This document shows, piece after piece, positions 305 through 23,838 of a stretch of 33,478 bases of DNA. The stretch covers positions 1,387,160 to 1,420,637 of the forward strand of contig CP070686.1 in NCBI GenBank assembly GCA_020353055.1, in the 5' to 3' direction. The position numbers were made by a program, and so were the translations under genes. Each line of letters starts with the position of its first letter. The first letter of the stretch is position 1. This DNA comes from Caldifarciminota bacterium (GTDB lineage: Bacteria > Hydrothermota > Tepidihabitantia > SM23-42). The notes beneath the pieces were generated by a model. It was given only the letters and a program-made list of their open reading frames with translations, was not told the DNA's origin and did not search any database.

Positions 305-811
305 ATGGAGAGATCAAAAGCTATTAAAGGGCTGATGAATGCCCTTCAAACTGAATTGAACGGCATTGAGTTTTACAGGATCGCCGCCGAGAAGACGGAA
401 GATGCAAAGGGCAAGAAGGTATTTCAAACGCTCGCCGATGATGAGCTCAAGCACTTCAATACGCTGCAACAGCAATACAAAGCACTGGCTAACGAAGGAA
501 GATGGCAGAAAATCAGTCTCGGAAATATCTCTATTTTTGAAGGCGAGAGTCCGATATTCACTGATGAGTTAAAACACAGGGTGAAGGGTATGCATTTTGA
601 AGTAACTGCGTTGAGTATCGGAGCCCAACTTGAAACTAATTCAATCGATTTCTACAGAAAAATGAAAGAAGAAAGTGACGACCCCACTGCCAAGGAAATG
701 TACGAAAAACTCCAGAAGTGGGAAGAAGTTCACCTCAATGCTATAAGCAAACAACTTGATCTGATAAAAGAAGATTACTGGGCAGAACAGCGCTTCTCAC
801 CGCTTTACTAA
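305..811 (+). CDS. Rubrerythrin-like diiron ferritin-fold protein (no rubredoxin domain)
   Basis: This 168-residue protein has two ferritin-like half-repeats. Likely diiron ligands are E17 and E47-x-x-H50 in the first half and E110 and E140-x-x-H143 in the second, with the usual tyrosine seven residues after the first glutamate of each half (Y24, Y117). The C-terminal rubredoxin domain of classical rubrerythrin is absent, so electrons would come from a separate rubredoxin-type donor. The family typically reduces peroxide or handles iron in anaerobes. The ATG has a strong AAAGGAG site. It leads an island with many other oxidative-stress genes, and a second paralogous-looking protein is encoded at 8571-9056. 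The fold is clear; the exact substrate is not. Confidence 0.85.
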   Translation: MERSKAIKGLMNALQTELNGIEFYRIAAEKTEDAKGKKVFQTLADDELKHFNTLQQQYKALANEGRWQKISLGNISIFEGESPIFTDELKHRVKGMHFEVTALSIGAQLETNSIDFYRKMKEESDDPTAKEMYEKLQKWEEVHLNAISKQLDLIKEDYWAEQRFSPLY

Positions 812-837
812 AGTGCACATCCTGACCGGGCTTGTTT

Positions 838-1080
838 ATGAACGATAAATTCGAAGCAGCAAAAACCCTTGATTGTGTCGGGTTGTATTGTCCGCAACCT
901 CTATTTCAAACCCGAGAGGGTATTGACTCGATAAGCGTTGGTGAATTGCTTGAGGTGCTGGCCGATGATCCTGCGGCTGAGGAGGATATTAAGAGATTTG
1001 CCAAGCGTACGGGTCACGAGATAGTTCTTTTCCAGAAAAAGGGCGGCTCGCTACGTTTTCTTATCAGAAAGACTAAATAG
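838..1080 (+). CDS. TusA-family sulfur carrier protein
   Basis: This small protein (80 residues from the ATG at 838) carries the TusA/SirA signature: Leu-Asp, a Gly, then Cys-Pro-x-Pro, with C18 as the expected persulfide-carrying cysteine and C13 just before it. TusA-like proteins accept sulfane sulfur and pass it to DsrE/TusD-type proteins or to Fe-S, tRNA or molybdenum-cofactor pathways in the cytosol. A TTG at 832 in the same frame would add two residues; I chose the ATG. It lies directly upstream of a DsrE-like gene and a NifS-type gene, a typical sulfur-trafficking neighbourhood. The family is well supported; the sulfur acceptor is inferred from context. Confidence 0.85.
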   Translation: MNDKFEAAKTLDCVGLYCPQPLFQTREGIDSISVGELLEVLADDPAAEEDIKRFAKRTGHEIVLFQKKGGSLRFLIRKTK

Positions 1081-1088
1081 GAGATAAA

Positions 1089-1451
1089 ATGAATAAGAAG
1101 GCATCTATCTTATACGTGCAAACGAGTGACGATCCCGAAAGACAATATTCACCACTCATCCTTGCACAAACAGCGAAGGCAATGGACATCGAAGCCAAAG
1201 TCTATTACCTGGGACAGGCACTGAGGGTACTGAAGCCGGAAACTACATCCACCATCAAGATCGGCGAATTCCCCAGTTTGCTGGAAATGTTAGAAAAAAC
1301 GATGGAACTGGGTATCGAGATCTATGTCTGCGAGGCATCTAAACAGATGCTCGGCTGGGACAAAATCGAGCTGATCAAGGGACTCAAGATCGTCGGCGCC
1401 GGGACTTTGAATGACCTCGCACTCGACGCCTCAGCAACTATGTGGTTTTAG
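1089..1451 (+). CDS. DsrE/DsrF-like sulfur-transfer protein
   Basis: This 120-residue protein has the small alpha/beta layout of DsrE/TusD proteins: an N-terminal strand with a hydroxyl-rich loop, then a Cys after a hydrophobic strand (IYVC, C81), the usual position of the persulfide cysteine. DsrE-like proteins pass sulfur to and from TusA. The start has a good site (GGAGATAAA-ATG). The gene begins 8 nt after the TusA stop and ends 16 nt before the desulfurase start, so the three are probably co-transcribed. It could belong to a peripheral DsrE subgroup, since only one conserved cysteine is visible. Confidence 0.75.
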   Translation: MNKKASILYVQTSDDPERQYSPLILAQTAKAMDIEAKVYYLGQALRVLKPETTSTIKIGEFPSLLEMLEKTMELGIEIYVCEASKQMLGWDKIELIKGLKIVGAGTLNDLALDASATMWF

Positions 1452-1467: not shown

Positions 1468-2631
1468 ATGAATTTCTACCTTGACTACCAATCATCAAAA
1501 CCTGTTGATCAGCGCGTGATCGATGCTATGCTTCCTTACCAGCATGATACATTCGGCAACCCCTCTTCCCTACACGCCGTGGGCGATGATGCTACTGAAG
1601 TACTCGAAGCATCCCGCGGGGCGATCGGCGCCTTCATAGGTGCCGAGAAGGATGAGATAATCTTTACTTCCGGAGCAACAGAATCCAATAATCTCGCCTT
1701 GATCGGTTACTCGTTCAGGAACAGGGATAAAGGCAACCATGTCGTGATCGCAGAAATCGAGCATATATCAATTCACAATATCGCGAAATACCTAGAGAAG
1801 AATGGCTTTGTCATTTCGAAAGTTCCCGTGGATCAATTCGGTGTGGTAAAAATCGAAAAACTGGCAGAGCGTATCACAGACAAAACGATTCTTGTATCAG
1901 TTGGTTATGCAAACAATGAGATAGGCACGGTCCAAAACATCTCACAAATCGGGGCGCTCTGTCGTGAAAAGAACATAGCCTTTCATACCGATGCGGTCGC
2001 TGCCGAGGGGTTATTATCCATTGATACTAATAAGGACAATATAGATCTCATGACGCTTTCATCAAATGATATATACGGACCAAAGGGGCTTGGTGCGCTC
2101 TATGTGCGAAAAGGCATACGCATCAACCCGCTTATAATAGGCGGCGGCCAGGAACGGGGACTGCGCTCTGGCACTGAGAACATCCCCGCGATCGCCGGGA
2201 TGAAAAAGGCGGCGGAGATTATCCAAAATGAGATGCCGGAGGAAACGAAGCGCTTTCAGCAATATCGAGACAAAATCATAAATGAAGTGCTATCAAAGGT
2301 GCCGAGGTGTTATTTGAACGGACACCCGACCAAAAGACTACCAAACAATGCACACTTCCGCTTCGATGGGGTCGAAGGTGAATCACTACTTCTATCCTTC
2401 AAGGAGAAAAAGATTGCGGTATCCACGGGTTCTGCCTGCAGTTCTAAGACGCTCGAACCATCACATACCCTAATCGCACTCGGCTTACTACACGAAGAGG
2501 CACATGGTTCTCTGGAAATAACTCTAGGCAGATTTAACCAGGAAGCCGATGTGGATGCGCTGCTGGCAGTGCTCCCGGAAATCGTAAAACGTCTAAGACG
2601 ATTGTCACCGCTCTACAAAGAGGAGGTATAG
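1468..2631 (+). CDS. NifS/IscS-type cysteine desulfurase lacking the PLP lysine
   Basis: This 387-residue aminotransferase class V protein aligns throughout with NifS/IscS. Visible landmarks are the GATESNN loop, H99 (PLP-stacking position), the NNEIGT motif, D175 and the persulfide cysteine C324 in GSACSS. At the PLP Schiff-base position, however, where the family reads S-x-H-K-I-Y-G-P-K-G, it reads S-S-N-D-I-Y-G-P-K-G, so D201 replaces the lysine and N200 the histidine. The Gln two residues after the Asp-Ala pair is also replaced, by A178. I recall an Archaeoglobus fulgidus IscS with the same Lys-to-Asp change that pairs with an IscU, so this may be that subtype rather than a dead enzyme. 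The start is the ATG at 1468, preceded by GAGGAGTTGGGAG. The IscU gene follows after 1 nt. Confidence 0.88.
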   Translation: MNFYLDYQSSKPVDQRVIDAMLPYQHDTFGNPSSLHAVGDDATEVLEASRGAIGAFIGAEKDEIIFTSGATESNNLALIGYSFRNRDKGNHVVIAEIEHISIHNIAKYLEKNGFVISKVPVDQFGVVKIEKLAERITDKTILVSVGYANNEIGTVQNISQIGALCREKNIAFHTDAVAAEGLLSIDTNKDNIDLMTLSSNDIYGPKGLGALYVRKGIRINPLIIGGGQERGLRSGTENIPAIAGMKKAAEIIQNEMPEETKRFQQYRDKIINEVLSKVPRCYLNGHPTKRLPNNAHFRFDGVEGESLLLSFKEKKIAVSTGSACSSKTLEPSHTLIALGLLHEEAHGSLEITLGRFNQEADVDALLAVLPEIVKRLRRLSPLYKEEV

Positions 2632-2632
2632 A

Positions 2633-3403
2633 GTGAAATCCACGCAATACAGCGACAAGGTACTGGACCATTTTAAGAACCCACGTAACGTCGGCACGCT
2701 TGAAGGCGACGATGTTACCGTCGGCAGGGTCGGTAATCCGGTTTGTGGTGATTTGATGGAGTTCTATGTCAAAGTCAAGGACGGCCGGATCGAAGATATT
2801 AAATTCAAGACGTTTGGCTGCGGTTCGGCGATCGCGACGGCAAGCATGATAACGGAATTGGCAAAGGGCAAAACCATCGACGAAGCGATCAAGATAACCA
2901 GACAGGATGTCGCAGATGAACTAGACGGTCTACCACCCATAAAAATGCACTGTTCTAACCTTGCCGCAGATGCTCTGAAGAACGCTATCAAGAACTATCA
3001 GGAAAAACAGAAACCGGCTCCGAAAGAAGATGCTGGATCTGCAGAACCCGGAGAAATATTGGGAATGAAGAATTTCGAAGATAGGGGAATCTTTCACGAG
3101 GTGACTGACTTAGCTAAGTTTGCTGACAAGAGGACTATGATTCTGGACAGCGGTGAAAGGTCGATGGAGATCGCTCTGCACTTAACAAAACATACCCCCC
3201 GGGTCATCTTTGTGACAAAGAACAAACAACTTCCGAGTGGCAGCAAGGTAGAGGAATTAAAGGCATCTACGGTGAGAATTCTGTACGAATCTGAAATTCT
3301 GGAGATAAATGGTTTGAATACGGTCGAGAAGGTTACCATCCATGACCTCAATGAAGACGAAGAATATGAGTTATTCGTCGATAGCATCATTATCCTTCGC
3401 TGA
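2633..3403 (+). CDS. IscU/NifU scaffold fused to a thioredoxin-reductase-like domain
   Basis: Residues 1 to about 122 form an IscU-type Fe-S scaffold with the three cluster cysteines C38 (in CGD, with D40), C63 (FGCGS) and C107 (MHCSN). A Lys/Pro/Glu-rich linker follows (about 123-145). Residues about 155-256 resemble the NAD(P)-binding half of thioredoxin reductases: a strand-turn-helix like the GGGDSA-EEA region, here degraded to LDSGERSMEIAL, then VIFVTKNKQL, a VEELK helix, a YESEILEINGLNTVEKV segment and an ELFVDSIII strand. The domain is short and lacks both the CxxC and a proper glycine-rich motif, so it is probably structural or protein-binding. The start is GTG at 2633 with a strong GAGGAGGT site overlapping the end of the desulfurase gene. 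That coupling points to a scaffold-desulfurase pair. Confidence 0.85.
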   Translation: MKSTQYSDKVLDHFKNPRNVGTLEGDDVTVGRVGNPVCGDLMEFYVKVKDGRIEDIKFKTFGCGSAIATASMITELAKGKTIDEAIKITRQDVADELDGLPPIKMHCSNLAADALKNAIKNYQEKQKPAPKEDAGSAEPGEILGMKNFEDRGIFHEVTDLAKFADKRTMILDSGERSMEIALHLTKHTPRVIFVTKNKQLPSGSKVEELKASTVRILYESEILEINGLNTVEKVTIHDLNEDEEYELFVDSIIILR

Positions 3404-6160: not shown

Positions 6161-6451
6161 ATGGATATCAAACATATCGAGGGCAAGAAGAAGGGGCAGG
6201 TTATGCTCTACGCACTGAGTACGTGCGTCTGGTGTAAGAGAACGAAAAGACTGCTCAATGAACTTGGTATAGACTATCATTTCGTTGATGCAGACCTGGC
6301 AAACTCGGAAGATAAAGAAGAGATCCGGCGAACGGTTCTCAAATGGAATCCCAACGGATCATACCCTACTATCGTAATCGACGATGAACACAGCATTATT
6401 GGCTATGATCCAGAAAGGATAAAAGAGGTGTTTGGTGACGGTGAAAAGTGA
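6161..6451 (+). CDS. Glutaredoxin-family redoxin (CVWC)
   Basis: This 96-residue thioredoxin-fold protein has an active site C22-V-W-C25, a cis-proline in YPTIV and a C-terminal GYDPERI segment typical of small glutaredoxin/NrdH-like proteins. It would reduce protein disulfides in the cytosol. The start is ATG at 6161 after AAGGAGCGTGA. Its 3' end overlaps the FTR-rubredoxin gene by a few codons, so the two are translationally coupled and the fusion protein is the obvious candidate to reduce this redoxin. That partnership is inferred. The CVWC site differs from the CPYC of typical GSH-dependent glutaredoxins. Confidence 0.88.
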
Positions 6452-6956
6452 AGCGCCGGGTCAAGAACAGATTGACAAATTGTATCAGAAACTGAAAAGT
6501 GAAGCCGACGAAGGCGGTTACCACCTCAATCCCGATCTTGATTTTACAAAAGAACTTGTTGAAGGGTTGATAGTCAATGAGGAAAGATACGGCTATCCTT
6601 CTTGCCCGTGCCGGCTGGCTACAGGAGAAAAACAGGAAGATCTCGATATAATCTGCCCTTGCGACTACCGGGATGCTGATGTTTCTGAATATGATACATG
6701 TTATTGTGGTCTTTATGTCTCGAAAACAGTTATTGATGAAAAAAAACAGATAGGCAAAATACCAGAGCGTCGCCCCGTGGAGCGAGAACGTAAGAAATCC
6801 ACCTCGGCGCCAGCGGCTTCTGCTTCGAAACTCACCCTACCCGTTTGGCGATGTCGTGTTTGTGGTTACTTATGCGCAAGAGATAACCCACCTGAAATAT
6901 GTCCGATATGCAAAGCGAAGAAGGACAGATTCGAGAAATTCATCGATAGCGCGTAA
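6435..6956 (+). CDS. Ferredoxin-thioredoxin reductase catalytic domain fused to rubredoxin
   Basis: The N-terminal part matches the FTR catalytic chain: C58-P-C60, C75-P-C77 and C90-Y-C92 (numbered from the TTG at 6432), the six cysteines that hold the [4Fe-4S] cluster and the redox disulfide. After a basic, Ser/Ala-rich linker (about 108-135) comes a rubredoxin-type domain, C141-x2-C144 and C157-x2-C160, of the short rubrerythrin type. FTR uses single-electron donors to reduce redoxin disulfides, and here the rubredoxin could feed electrons within the same chain. I recall rubredoxin-carrying FTR homologues in methanogens. The start is GTG at 6435 or 6441; the AAGAGGTG site fits 6441 slightly better. 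It overlaps the glutaredoxin gene. No FTR variable subunit is nearby. Confidence 0.88.
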
Positions 6957-20030: not shown

Positions 20031-20444
20031 ATGAGTAGCGAAGGCGAATATTCAGCCGTAGTACTTGACCACATGCGCCACCCGCGCAATTGGGGTATCA
20101 TCAATAGAAGTGATGGCTTCTCAAGAATAACCGGGCCATGCGGCGATACAATGGAAATATCCTTGAATGTGAAAGACAACACGATCGTCAAATGTACCTT
20201 CGATACAGACGGCTGCGGGGCAACGGTCGCATGCGGAAGCATAGTCACCGAAATGGCAACCGGTGAGAAGCTTTGTCATGCCAGGCAAATCGATCAGACG
20301 ATGGTCCTTGATTGCTGCCGTGGTCTACCCGCGGGCAATGTACACTGCGCTCAATTAGCAGCCAACACCTTACGCAGTGCGATTGACGACTACTTTCAAA
20401 CACACCAATCACCCTGGAAGAAGATTTACAGGATACAAAAATAG
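20031..20444 (+). CDS. Second IscU/SufU-like Fe-S scaffold
   Basis: This 137-residue single-domain protein has the three IscU-type cysteines C37 (GPCGD, with D39), C62 (DGCGAT) and C106 (NVHCAQL), plus extra cysteines including a C95-C96 pair. It differs from the island scaffold by lacking any C-terminal fusion, and no desulfurase lies beside it. It could be a cluster carrier or a zinc-binding SufU-like protein. The ribosome site is poor (CCAGG directly before the ATG). It sits 46 nt after treT, with no link to sugar metabolism evident. Confidence 0.85.
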   Translation: MSSEGEYSAVVLDHMRHPRNWGIINRSDGFSRITGPCGDTMEISLNVKDNTIVKCTFDTDGCGATVACGSIVTEMATGEKLCHARQIDQTMVLDCCRGLPAGNVHCAQLAANTLRSAIDDYFQTHQSPWKKIYRIQK

Positions 20445-22772: not shown

Positions 22773-22988
22773 ATGAAGAAGATTACCGCCGATACTCATA
22801 TAGATCAGATCCTCAGCAGATACCCAACTCTCTCGAGGGTATTCATCGAGTATGGCTTACCCTGTCTTGTTTGCGGCGAGCCATTCTGGGGTACGGTTGA
22901 ACAGCTGGGTAAACAGTACGATATGAACGTGTGCAAATTAATTGAGAAATTAAATGAAGAAAAAGGGAAATCAGATGAAAAAACATAA
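22773..22988 (+). CDS. DUF1858 small redox-disulfide protein
   Basis: This 71-residue protein fits DUF1858 (the hybrid-cluster-protein-associated redox disulfide domain): ITADTHIDQILSRYP, VFIEYGLPC and a CLVC pair. Such domains are thought to exchange dithiol and disulfide, but function is not established. I chose the ATG at 22773 because the domain starts there and the promoter lies directly upstream; the longer in-frame extension to 22722 would begin before the promoter. Its end overlaps the Nudix-PanD start by 14 nt, so the two are coupled. Confidence 0.82.
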   Translation: MKKITADTHIDQILSRYPTLSRVFIEYGLPCLVCGEPFWGTVEQLGKQYDMNVCKLIEKLNEEKGKSDEKT

Positions 22989-23838
22989 GTTCTGCCCACT
23001 TTGTAGAAGTGCTTTATCACCAAGGAAAATCGATGATACGGTTCGCTTGGTCTGCACCCAATGTGGATGGGTTTTCTATGCCAATCCGCTACCGAGTGCA
23101 GTGGCGTTTGTCCTTCGTGGAGAAGATGAAGTACTGCTGATAAAGCGAGGTATAAGGCCGGGCAAGGGCAAATGGGCCCTTCCTTCAGGCTTTGTCGAAA
23201 TCGATGAAACTCCCGAAAAGACCGTAATCCGTGAATTGAAGGAGGAAACGAACATCGACGGTACTCTAGAAGATCTTATCGGCGTTTATACGGAACCCAC
23301 GAGCATGTATGGCAACGTGCTGCTCATTGCATACGACGTGAAGTTTCACAAGGGTAAACCTCGGGCCCGCACCGACACAGTGGACGCGAAATTTTTCCCG
23401 CTAAGCAAGCTGCCTAAAATACCCTTTTCCAGCCACCGTGCAATCATCCGCGATGCTGTAAGCAGAAGAAAAGAAGCAAATTCTGTAAATGTCTGCGTAT
23501 TGAAATCAAAAATAACCGAAGCCACAATAACCAATACAAAACTGTTCTACAAAGGTAGCATGGGAATTGACGGCACAGTCTTGAAAAAAGTGGACATCCT
23601 ACCAGGTGAAAAAGTCCAGGTACTCAATTACGATAATGGAGAGCGCTTGGAGACCTACACGATCGAGGAGAGAGCCGGTTCTGGAAGAATTGTTTTATAC
23701 GGACCAGCATCGAGAAAGGGCAAGGTCGGGCAGAGGCTTTGTATATTGTCTTATGCCAACATGAACTACGATGATGCAAAGGCATTCAGAGCAAAAGTGG
23801 TCACGCTCGATTCAAAGAACAGAATAAAACGCCGCTAG
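22975..23838 (+). CDS. Nudix hydrolase fused to aspartate 1-decarboxylase (PanD)
   Basis: This protein of about 287 residues has three parts. An N-terminal zinc ribbon (CPLC...CTQC, about 7-30) and Nudix domain (about 35-160) show a perfect Nudix box, G-x5-E-x7-R-E-x2-E-E, resembling NudC-type pyrophosphatases. Residues about 175-287 align with PanD over its full length: Lys178 (PanD K9 position), Y-K-G194-S195 at the self-cleavage site, and R224, T227 and Y228 in NGERLETY. PanD cleaves itself at Gly-Ser to form a pyruvoyl cofactor and makes beta-alanine for pantothenate and CoA. Here the PanD H11 position is Thr and N72 is Tyr, so activity needs proof. The start is ATG 22975 after AAAAAGGGA; ATG 22954 is possible. 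Confidence 0.88.
   Translation: MKKHKFCPLCRSALSPRKIDDTVRLVCTQCGWVFYANPLPSAVAFVLRGEDEVLLIKRGIRPGKGKWALPSGFVEIDETPEKTVIRELKEETNIDGTLEDLIGVYTEPTSMYGNVLLIAYDVKFHKGKPRARTDTVDAKFFPLSKLPKIPFSSHRAIIRDAVSRRKEANSVNVCVLKSKITEATITNTKLFYKGSMGIDGTVLKKVDILPGEKVQVLNYDNGERLETYTIEERAGSGRIVLYGPASRKGKVGQRLCILSYANMNYDDAKAFRAKVVTLDSKNRIKRR

Follow-up and report, generated by a model that had tools for sequence, protein, structure and literature searches.

Sulfur is usually taken to enter Fe-S clusters by way of cysteine desulfurases, and the locus described here raises the question of what an IscS/NifS homologue does when its Schiff-base lysine is replaced and its gene lies in a tight cluster with two small sulfur carriers and an IscU scaffold. 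The window, which is the whole stretch of 33,478 nucleotides that was analysed, belongs to a WOR-3-group genome that consists of one contig of 2.69 Mb and whose nearest named relatives are WOR-3 MAGs. The features of the cluster are as follows.

305..811, + strand: rubrerythrin/ferritin-like protein with which the tight cluster begins (PF02915).
832..1080, + strand: TusA sulfur carrier, likely start ATG 838 (PF01206, E 6e-24).
1089..1451, + strand: DsrE-family protein with the invariant cysteine C81 at 1329-1331 (PF02635/PF13686).
1468..2631, + strand: IscS/NifS homologue without the PLP Schiff-base lysine, called IscS-D here (translation, alignment).
2633..3031, + strand: IscU/NifU_N scaffold domain, next gene (PF01592; TIGR03419 above cut-off).
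3038..3403, + strand: C-terminal domain of ~115 aa fused to IscU (weak match to TIGR01292; AF2 and Foldseek).

The gaps that separate the rubrerythrin-like gene, tusA, dsrE, iscS(Asp), and iscU are 20, 8, 16, and 1 bases, and the CPxP cysteine C20 of TusA is encoded at 889-891. The TusA and DsrE neighbours named in the first-pass annotation hold by profile matches, with IscU/NifU following at 2633-3403.

The open reading frame at 1468-2631 encodes a 387-aa protein without interruption, and its match to PF00266 (E 4e-72) places IscS-D in the IscS/NifS fold and sequence family. When aligned with E. coli IscS, D201 (codon 2068-2070) corresponds to the PLP lysine K206, N200 (2065-2067) to H205, and A178 (1999-2001) to Q183, in agreement with the Lys to Asp, His to Asn, and Gln to Ala changes first read from the DNA. 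The group I PLP-lysine motif [ST]-x-H-K is absent, and S-S-N-D stands at 198-201. The other landmarks claimed to be retained are also found: the persulfide cysteine C324 (codon 2437-2439) is the equivalent of C328 on the long mobile loop, and D175, H99, and T71 are the equivalents of D180, H104, and T76. S101 and K327 are further marker residues in this alignment. IscS-D scores below the curated NCBIfam cut-offs of TIGR03402 (473 vs 530.75 bits) and TIGR02006 (408 vs 643.2), and the sole NCBIfam cut-off that it clears is that of the broad subfamily NF002806 (321.9 vs 304).

In the taxonomic family of the host, a search by overall similarity returned Asp forms at 66-82% identity and canonical copies at about 42-48%, and N-D was present in all 19 full-length Asp-form relatives found in this way. 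In the pooled alignment, for which many loci were fetched by an N-D-containing motif, the lysine position is D/E in 91/91 and N200 is kept in 91/91; the equivalent of C324 is likewise kept in all 91 Asp forms. The dN/dS between close relatives of IscS-D is ~0.07-0.16, and the gene is under purifying selection. Sequencing error and pseudogene were ruled out by this low dN/dS together with the D/E count and the unbroken frame. A compensating lysine was also ruled out, since the only near-invariant lysines are K107 and K327. The former aligns with R112 of E. coli IscS, which is among the surface positions changed by mutation in PMC2854127, and the latter lies on the Cys loop and is M or R in two rows of the pooled alignment. 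Thus the alignment proposed earlier as a check places no other lysine at the Schiff-base position.

Forms with Asp at this position are spread over both domains. A scan of GTDB contigs confirmed at least 286 loci, of which the best 80 were all of the Asp type, one of them with Glu; since SND[ILM]YGPK was among the scan patterns, the invariance of N-D is overstated by this set. The best 80 of at least 286 loci include bacteria of WOR-3, Aminicenantes, Deltaproteobacteria, Actinobacteria, Eisenbacteria, and Aerophobetes, and archaea of Asgard, Bathyarchaeota, ANME-2/Methanosarcinales, Archaeoglobi, and Hadesarchaea. Columns 178 and 198-201 were masked for a 143-row IscS tree, in which a branch with an SH-aLRT of 100 has the Asp forms, A. 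fulgidus IscS included, on one side (68/143 rows). This clade neighbours archaeal lysine forms, and its bacterial members nest among Asgard ones, a topology which suggests transfer of the Asp-form IscS from archaea to bacteria, with the caution that applies to metagenome bins. The gene had been described as a coupled bacterial copy; it is coupled in an operon, but it is not isolated and belongs to a cross-domain clade.

Other families of the same class hold a second group of lysine-less IscS homologues, type II, in which the lysine is replaced by Gln, Ser, Thr, Ala, or Asn. Type II forms a separate clade (SH-aLRT 100), and in the 143-row tree the two lysine-less clades stand apart among lysine forms. 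The persulfide cysteine is kept in 22/22 type II members. A178 is common to Asp and most type II forms, whereas lysine forms have Gln in 55/55, and S101 is common to both lysine-less clades, whereas lysine forms mostly have Ala. Moreover, a basic residue at Cys+3 (327) is found in 90/91 Asp forms and 21/22 type II members but in only 8/55 lysine forms. Type II may have arisen separately from the Asp clade. Two independent lysine losses are not claimed, because a single lysine-less clade was not rejected in an AU test of 59 rows (p 0.476) and because A178, S101, and basic 327 are common to both. The type II loci of the WOR-3 phylum, with S, T, Q, or A in place of the lysine, are L220-L229, L231-L235, L238-L241, L245, and L246. 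Some of them have dsrE and tusA after iscS, and some have three rubrerythrin-like genes before it. A glutaredoxin and/or an FTR-beta/rubredoxin fusion lies near both lysine-less kinds, at 6161-6956 in the window and in the type II loci L259 and L265.

The nearest solved relative of IscS-D is A. fulgidus IscS (4eb5, 4eb7, and 4hvk), which is 53% identical over the whole length and has in common with it SSNDIYGPKG, the persulfide loop, an IscU partner, and clade membership; 4r5f is its D199K form. According to PMC7585200, A. fulgidus IscS has no desulfurase activity because the lysine is replaced by aspartate, and it binds IscU though inactive and gives a cysteine ligand to the IscU cluster. A lysine-less, inactive IscS is thus already known from this published protein, and the mention in the first-pass annotation of a Lys-to-Asp IscS that pairs with IscU is confirmed by it and by the SSNDIYGPKG match. 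The window copy differs from A. fulgidus IscS in coming from a bacterium, in the thioredoxin-reductase (TrxR)-like domain on its IscU, and in the presence of tusA and dsrE in its operon. Among the Archaeoglobi loci near A. fulgidus IscS, one has tusA (L113) and another has tusA and dsrE (L118). The catalytic lysine is also missing from M. acetivorans IscS1, for which a role like that of A. fulgidus IscS has been suggested (PMC7585200), although it is an uncharacterised protein obtained in inclusion bodies.

The changes in IscS-D had been expected to kill PLP chemistry. The lysine is indeed gone, but loss of PLP binding does not follow, because T71, H99, D175, and S198, which make the phosphate, ring, and N1 contacts, are kept in 90-91 of 91 Asp forms. 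The wider fold family contains Lys-replaced, PMP-dependent relatives such as ColD, and IscS-D might likewise bind PLP or PMP in the absence of a Schiff base and use D201 as acid/base to catalyse desulfuration or some other reaction. The lysine position does not drift but is held at Asp, which would suit such catalysis, although the scan motif accounts for part of this constancy. PLP is also drawn in the published A. fulgidus IscS structure 4EB5 (PMC9769115), and together with the kept contacts this indicates that PLP binding may persist without Schiff-base chemistry; the conserved pocket hints that the site still binds something. Nevertheless, we regard catalysis of this kind as quite improbable, given the inactivity reported for A. 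fulgidus IscS in PMC7585200 and the loss of the Q183 and H205 equivalents along with the lysine. In addition, A178 is found in most type II members too, the lysine position of which drifts among S, T, Q, A, and N.

The gene neighbourhood suggests a different role. Upstream sequence was sufficient in 72 Asp loci; tusA lies immediately upstream in the same orientation in 67 of them (the exceptions are L082, L097, L108, L110, and L112) and dsrE is adjacent in 46, and nifU/iscU lies directly downstream in 70/75 Asp loci with a median gap of 2.5 bases. In contrast, the lysine-bearing paralogues of the same genomes have tusA or dsrE adjacent in 0/38 and iscU in 15/38. Fisher's test of tusA adjacency between Asp and lysine loci gives p 2e-24, which is descriptive only because the loci are related; the operon may have become tied to the Asp clade only once, in an ancestor, which makes the locus counts non-independent. 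In the host's own taxonomic family, tusA accompanies 19/19 Asp loci, dsrE 18/19, and iscU 19/19. In type II loci, iscU is downstream in most, and tusA/dsrE is directly adjacent in only 3/20. The carrier cysteines are invariant in the operon homologues (TusA C20 in 73/73 and DsrE C81 in 52/52), and IscS-D distances are correlated with TusA distances (r 0.62) and with DsrE distances (r 0.79). The weak IscU-IscS correlation (r 0.14) was set aside, as it probably reflects fusions and long ORFs aligned whole. Of the TusA contacts in E. coli IscS numbering, W45 and E49 have no conserved equivalents in Asp or Lys forms, and the acid at D52 (most Asp forms) and the R55 equivalent (89/90) are kept equally in lysine forms. 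Rubrerythrin-like homologues are also found upstream in several related WOR-3 loci. Rubrerythrins, a glutaredoxin, an FTR-like (ferredoxin:thioredoxin-reductase) protein, and a desulfoferrodoxin flank the operon, and such oxygen-defence flanks vary by lineage.

An inventory of the host genome by single-family searches showed that it encodes an ordinary IscS with H-K and its own IscU downstream (L001), and a SufS-like protein with H-K (L002). Thus the lysine-less gene is an extra copy and not the sole IscS. The genome has a single TusA match, which is the operon TusA and does not lie beside the ordinary IscS, and three NifU_N proteins; SufB/SufD were not found in the same single-family search. 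The third NifU_N protein, a stand-alone IscU-like protein, is encoded at 20031-20444 of the window with no IscS adjoining.

Considering the linkage and the conserved residues, IscS-D is probably a conserved pseudo-desulfurase, with C324 as the point at which persulfide passes from TusA/DsrE to IscU. IscS-D would have lost cysteine desulfurase chemistry but retained the dimeric fold, the mobile C324 loop, and the IscU partner. TusA (C20) and/or DsrE (C81) would carry persulfide sulfur and hand it over to C324, which would then give it to the neighbouring IscU to build Fe-S clusters. TusA could be loaded by the ordinary lysine-bearing IscS or the SufS-like protein, and by sulfide/polysulfide in genomes without those. 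That some type II members also adjoin dsrE and tusA supports such a relay. It is weakened by the Asp loci that have no tusA, by the small share of type II loci with tusA/dsrE directly adjacent, and by the poor conservation of the W45 and E49 equivalents. A relay from TusA and DsrE had been proposed at the outset, and its linkage (67/72 vs 0/38) and invariant carrier cysteines stand; we infer that IscS-D is inactive, that C324 carries persulfide, that sulfur moves from TusA/DsrE over IscS to IscU, and that the module serves Fe-S assembly.

Known systems offer partial parallels to this relay. E. coli IscS belongs to the same fold family and binds TusA as well as IscU, with Cys328 serving both; in its direct contact with TusA this cysteine is about 4 Å from TusA Cys19 (PMC2854127). 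However, E. coli IscS has K206 and sulfur flows from IscS to TusA, whereas a lysine-less IscS would need the reversed flow. The same small carriers are used by sulfur oxidisers such as A. vinosum, where DsrE takes persulfide from sulfide without IscS (PMC3397948), although the acceptor there is DsrC, whereas in the lysine-less operon it would be IscS-D/IscU.

Alternatively, the lysine-less IscS might be a structural partner that holds IscU, with C324 as a cluster ligand and free sulfide as the source, while TusA and DsrE serve something else or are only co-regulated stress genes. Many of the hosts are anaerobes, in which sulfide is plausible, and some Asp loci have neither tusA nor dsrE. Such a role has been proposed for A. 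fulgidus IscS (Pagnier 2014 and Marinoni 2012, as cited in PMC7585200), the Cys321 of which ligates the [2Fe-2S] cluster on IscU (PMC9769115). We nevertheless consider a purely structural role unlikely, because it leaves unexplained both the fixation of tusA beside the lysine-less form in several phyla and both domains, against none of the 38 lysine forms, and the basic residue 327 on the Cys loop in both lysine-less clades. It is also conceivable that the module handles sulfur trafficking or reactive sulfur and does not serve Fe-S clusters in particular. IscS-D would then be a hub, IscU one of its acceptors, and the purpose tRNA or cofactor thiolation or persulfide buffering under oxygen stress. 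TusA and DsrE/TusBCD work in tRNA thiolation in E. coli (PMC3397948), and the redox and oxygen-defence genes around the operon would be in keeping with this. However, these flanking genes differ among lineages, whereas the most constant downstream partner (70/75 loci) is an IscU with intact cluster ligands, and we see little probability in a module of this general kind.

If the relay from TusA/DsrE is extended to all these loci, the ISC system would have a widespread branch, unnamed until now, in which IscU receives sulfur without cysteine desulfuration at IscS, the lysine-less IscS taking persulfide from TusA/DsrE through one operon found in both domains, with type II counterparts. We advance this tentatively, as slightly less than evenly probable. 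If it is true, many anaerobic archaea and bacteria receive sulfur as persulfide or sulfide with IscS only as a relay, and the A. fulgidus IscS-IscU structures, a frequent model of cluster assembly, represent another system. The relay also offers a testable role for the "dead" proteins of A. fulgidus and M. acetivorans, and genomes credited with cysteine desulfurases on the basis of lysine-less genes would need revisiting. In the open papers searched, no account was found of Asp-form IscS as a clade that spans both domains and is tied to TusA/DsrE, nor of a further clade of lysine-less IscS or an IscU-reductase fusion such as the one below.

The IscU of the operon retains all of its ligands, namely C38 (2744-2746), D40, C63 (2819-2821), H106, and C107 (2951-2953), and these five residues are invariant in 34/34 homologues. 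The ~115-aa domain fused to it has the fold of a thioredoxin-reductase NAD(P)H domain (AF2 pLDDT 87; Foldseek matches to TrxR 3f8d and others) but is missing the dinucleotide-binding Gly motif, and the arrangement of the two domains is uncertain in view of the pTM of 0.50 for the whole model. In ANME-2/Methanosarcinales, the IscU homologues have a full-length flavoprotein reductase fused at the same place (alignment; Pyr_redox_2 in L096/L112), and relatives of this group (L096, L109, and L116) have the order tusA-dsrE-iscS(Asp)-IscU with that fusion. Such IscU-TrxR-like flavoprotein fusions, 441-450 aa in length, were observed downstream of iscS in L096, L102, L112, and L116, one of them from another archaeon. 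By this comparison, the short domain on the window IscU looks like a remnant of a full-length reductase and may be left from a docking or redox partner, and an ancestral IscU-reductase fusion would fit a persulfide reduction step on IscU. In a Lokiarchaeota locus (L107:5980-7584), the lysine-less IscS is joined straight to the TrxR-like remnant with no IscU, as either a natural deletion or an assembly fault, and the IscU gene of a Sifarchaeum MAG (L108:4665-6251) holds an intein with a LAGLIDADG endonuclease domain. Elsewhere in the window, one ORF at 22954-23838 fuses a NUDIX hydrolase domain, with a Zn ribbon, to a PanD aspartate decarboxylase domain.
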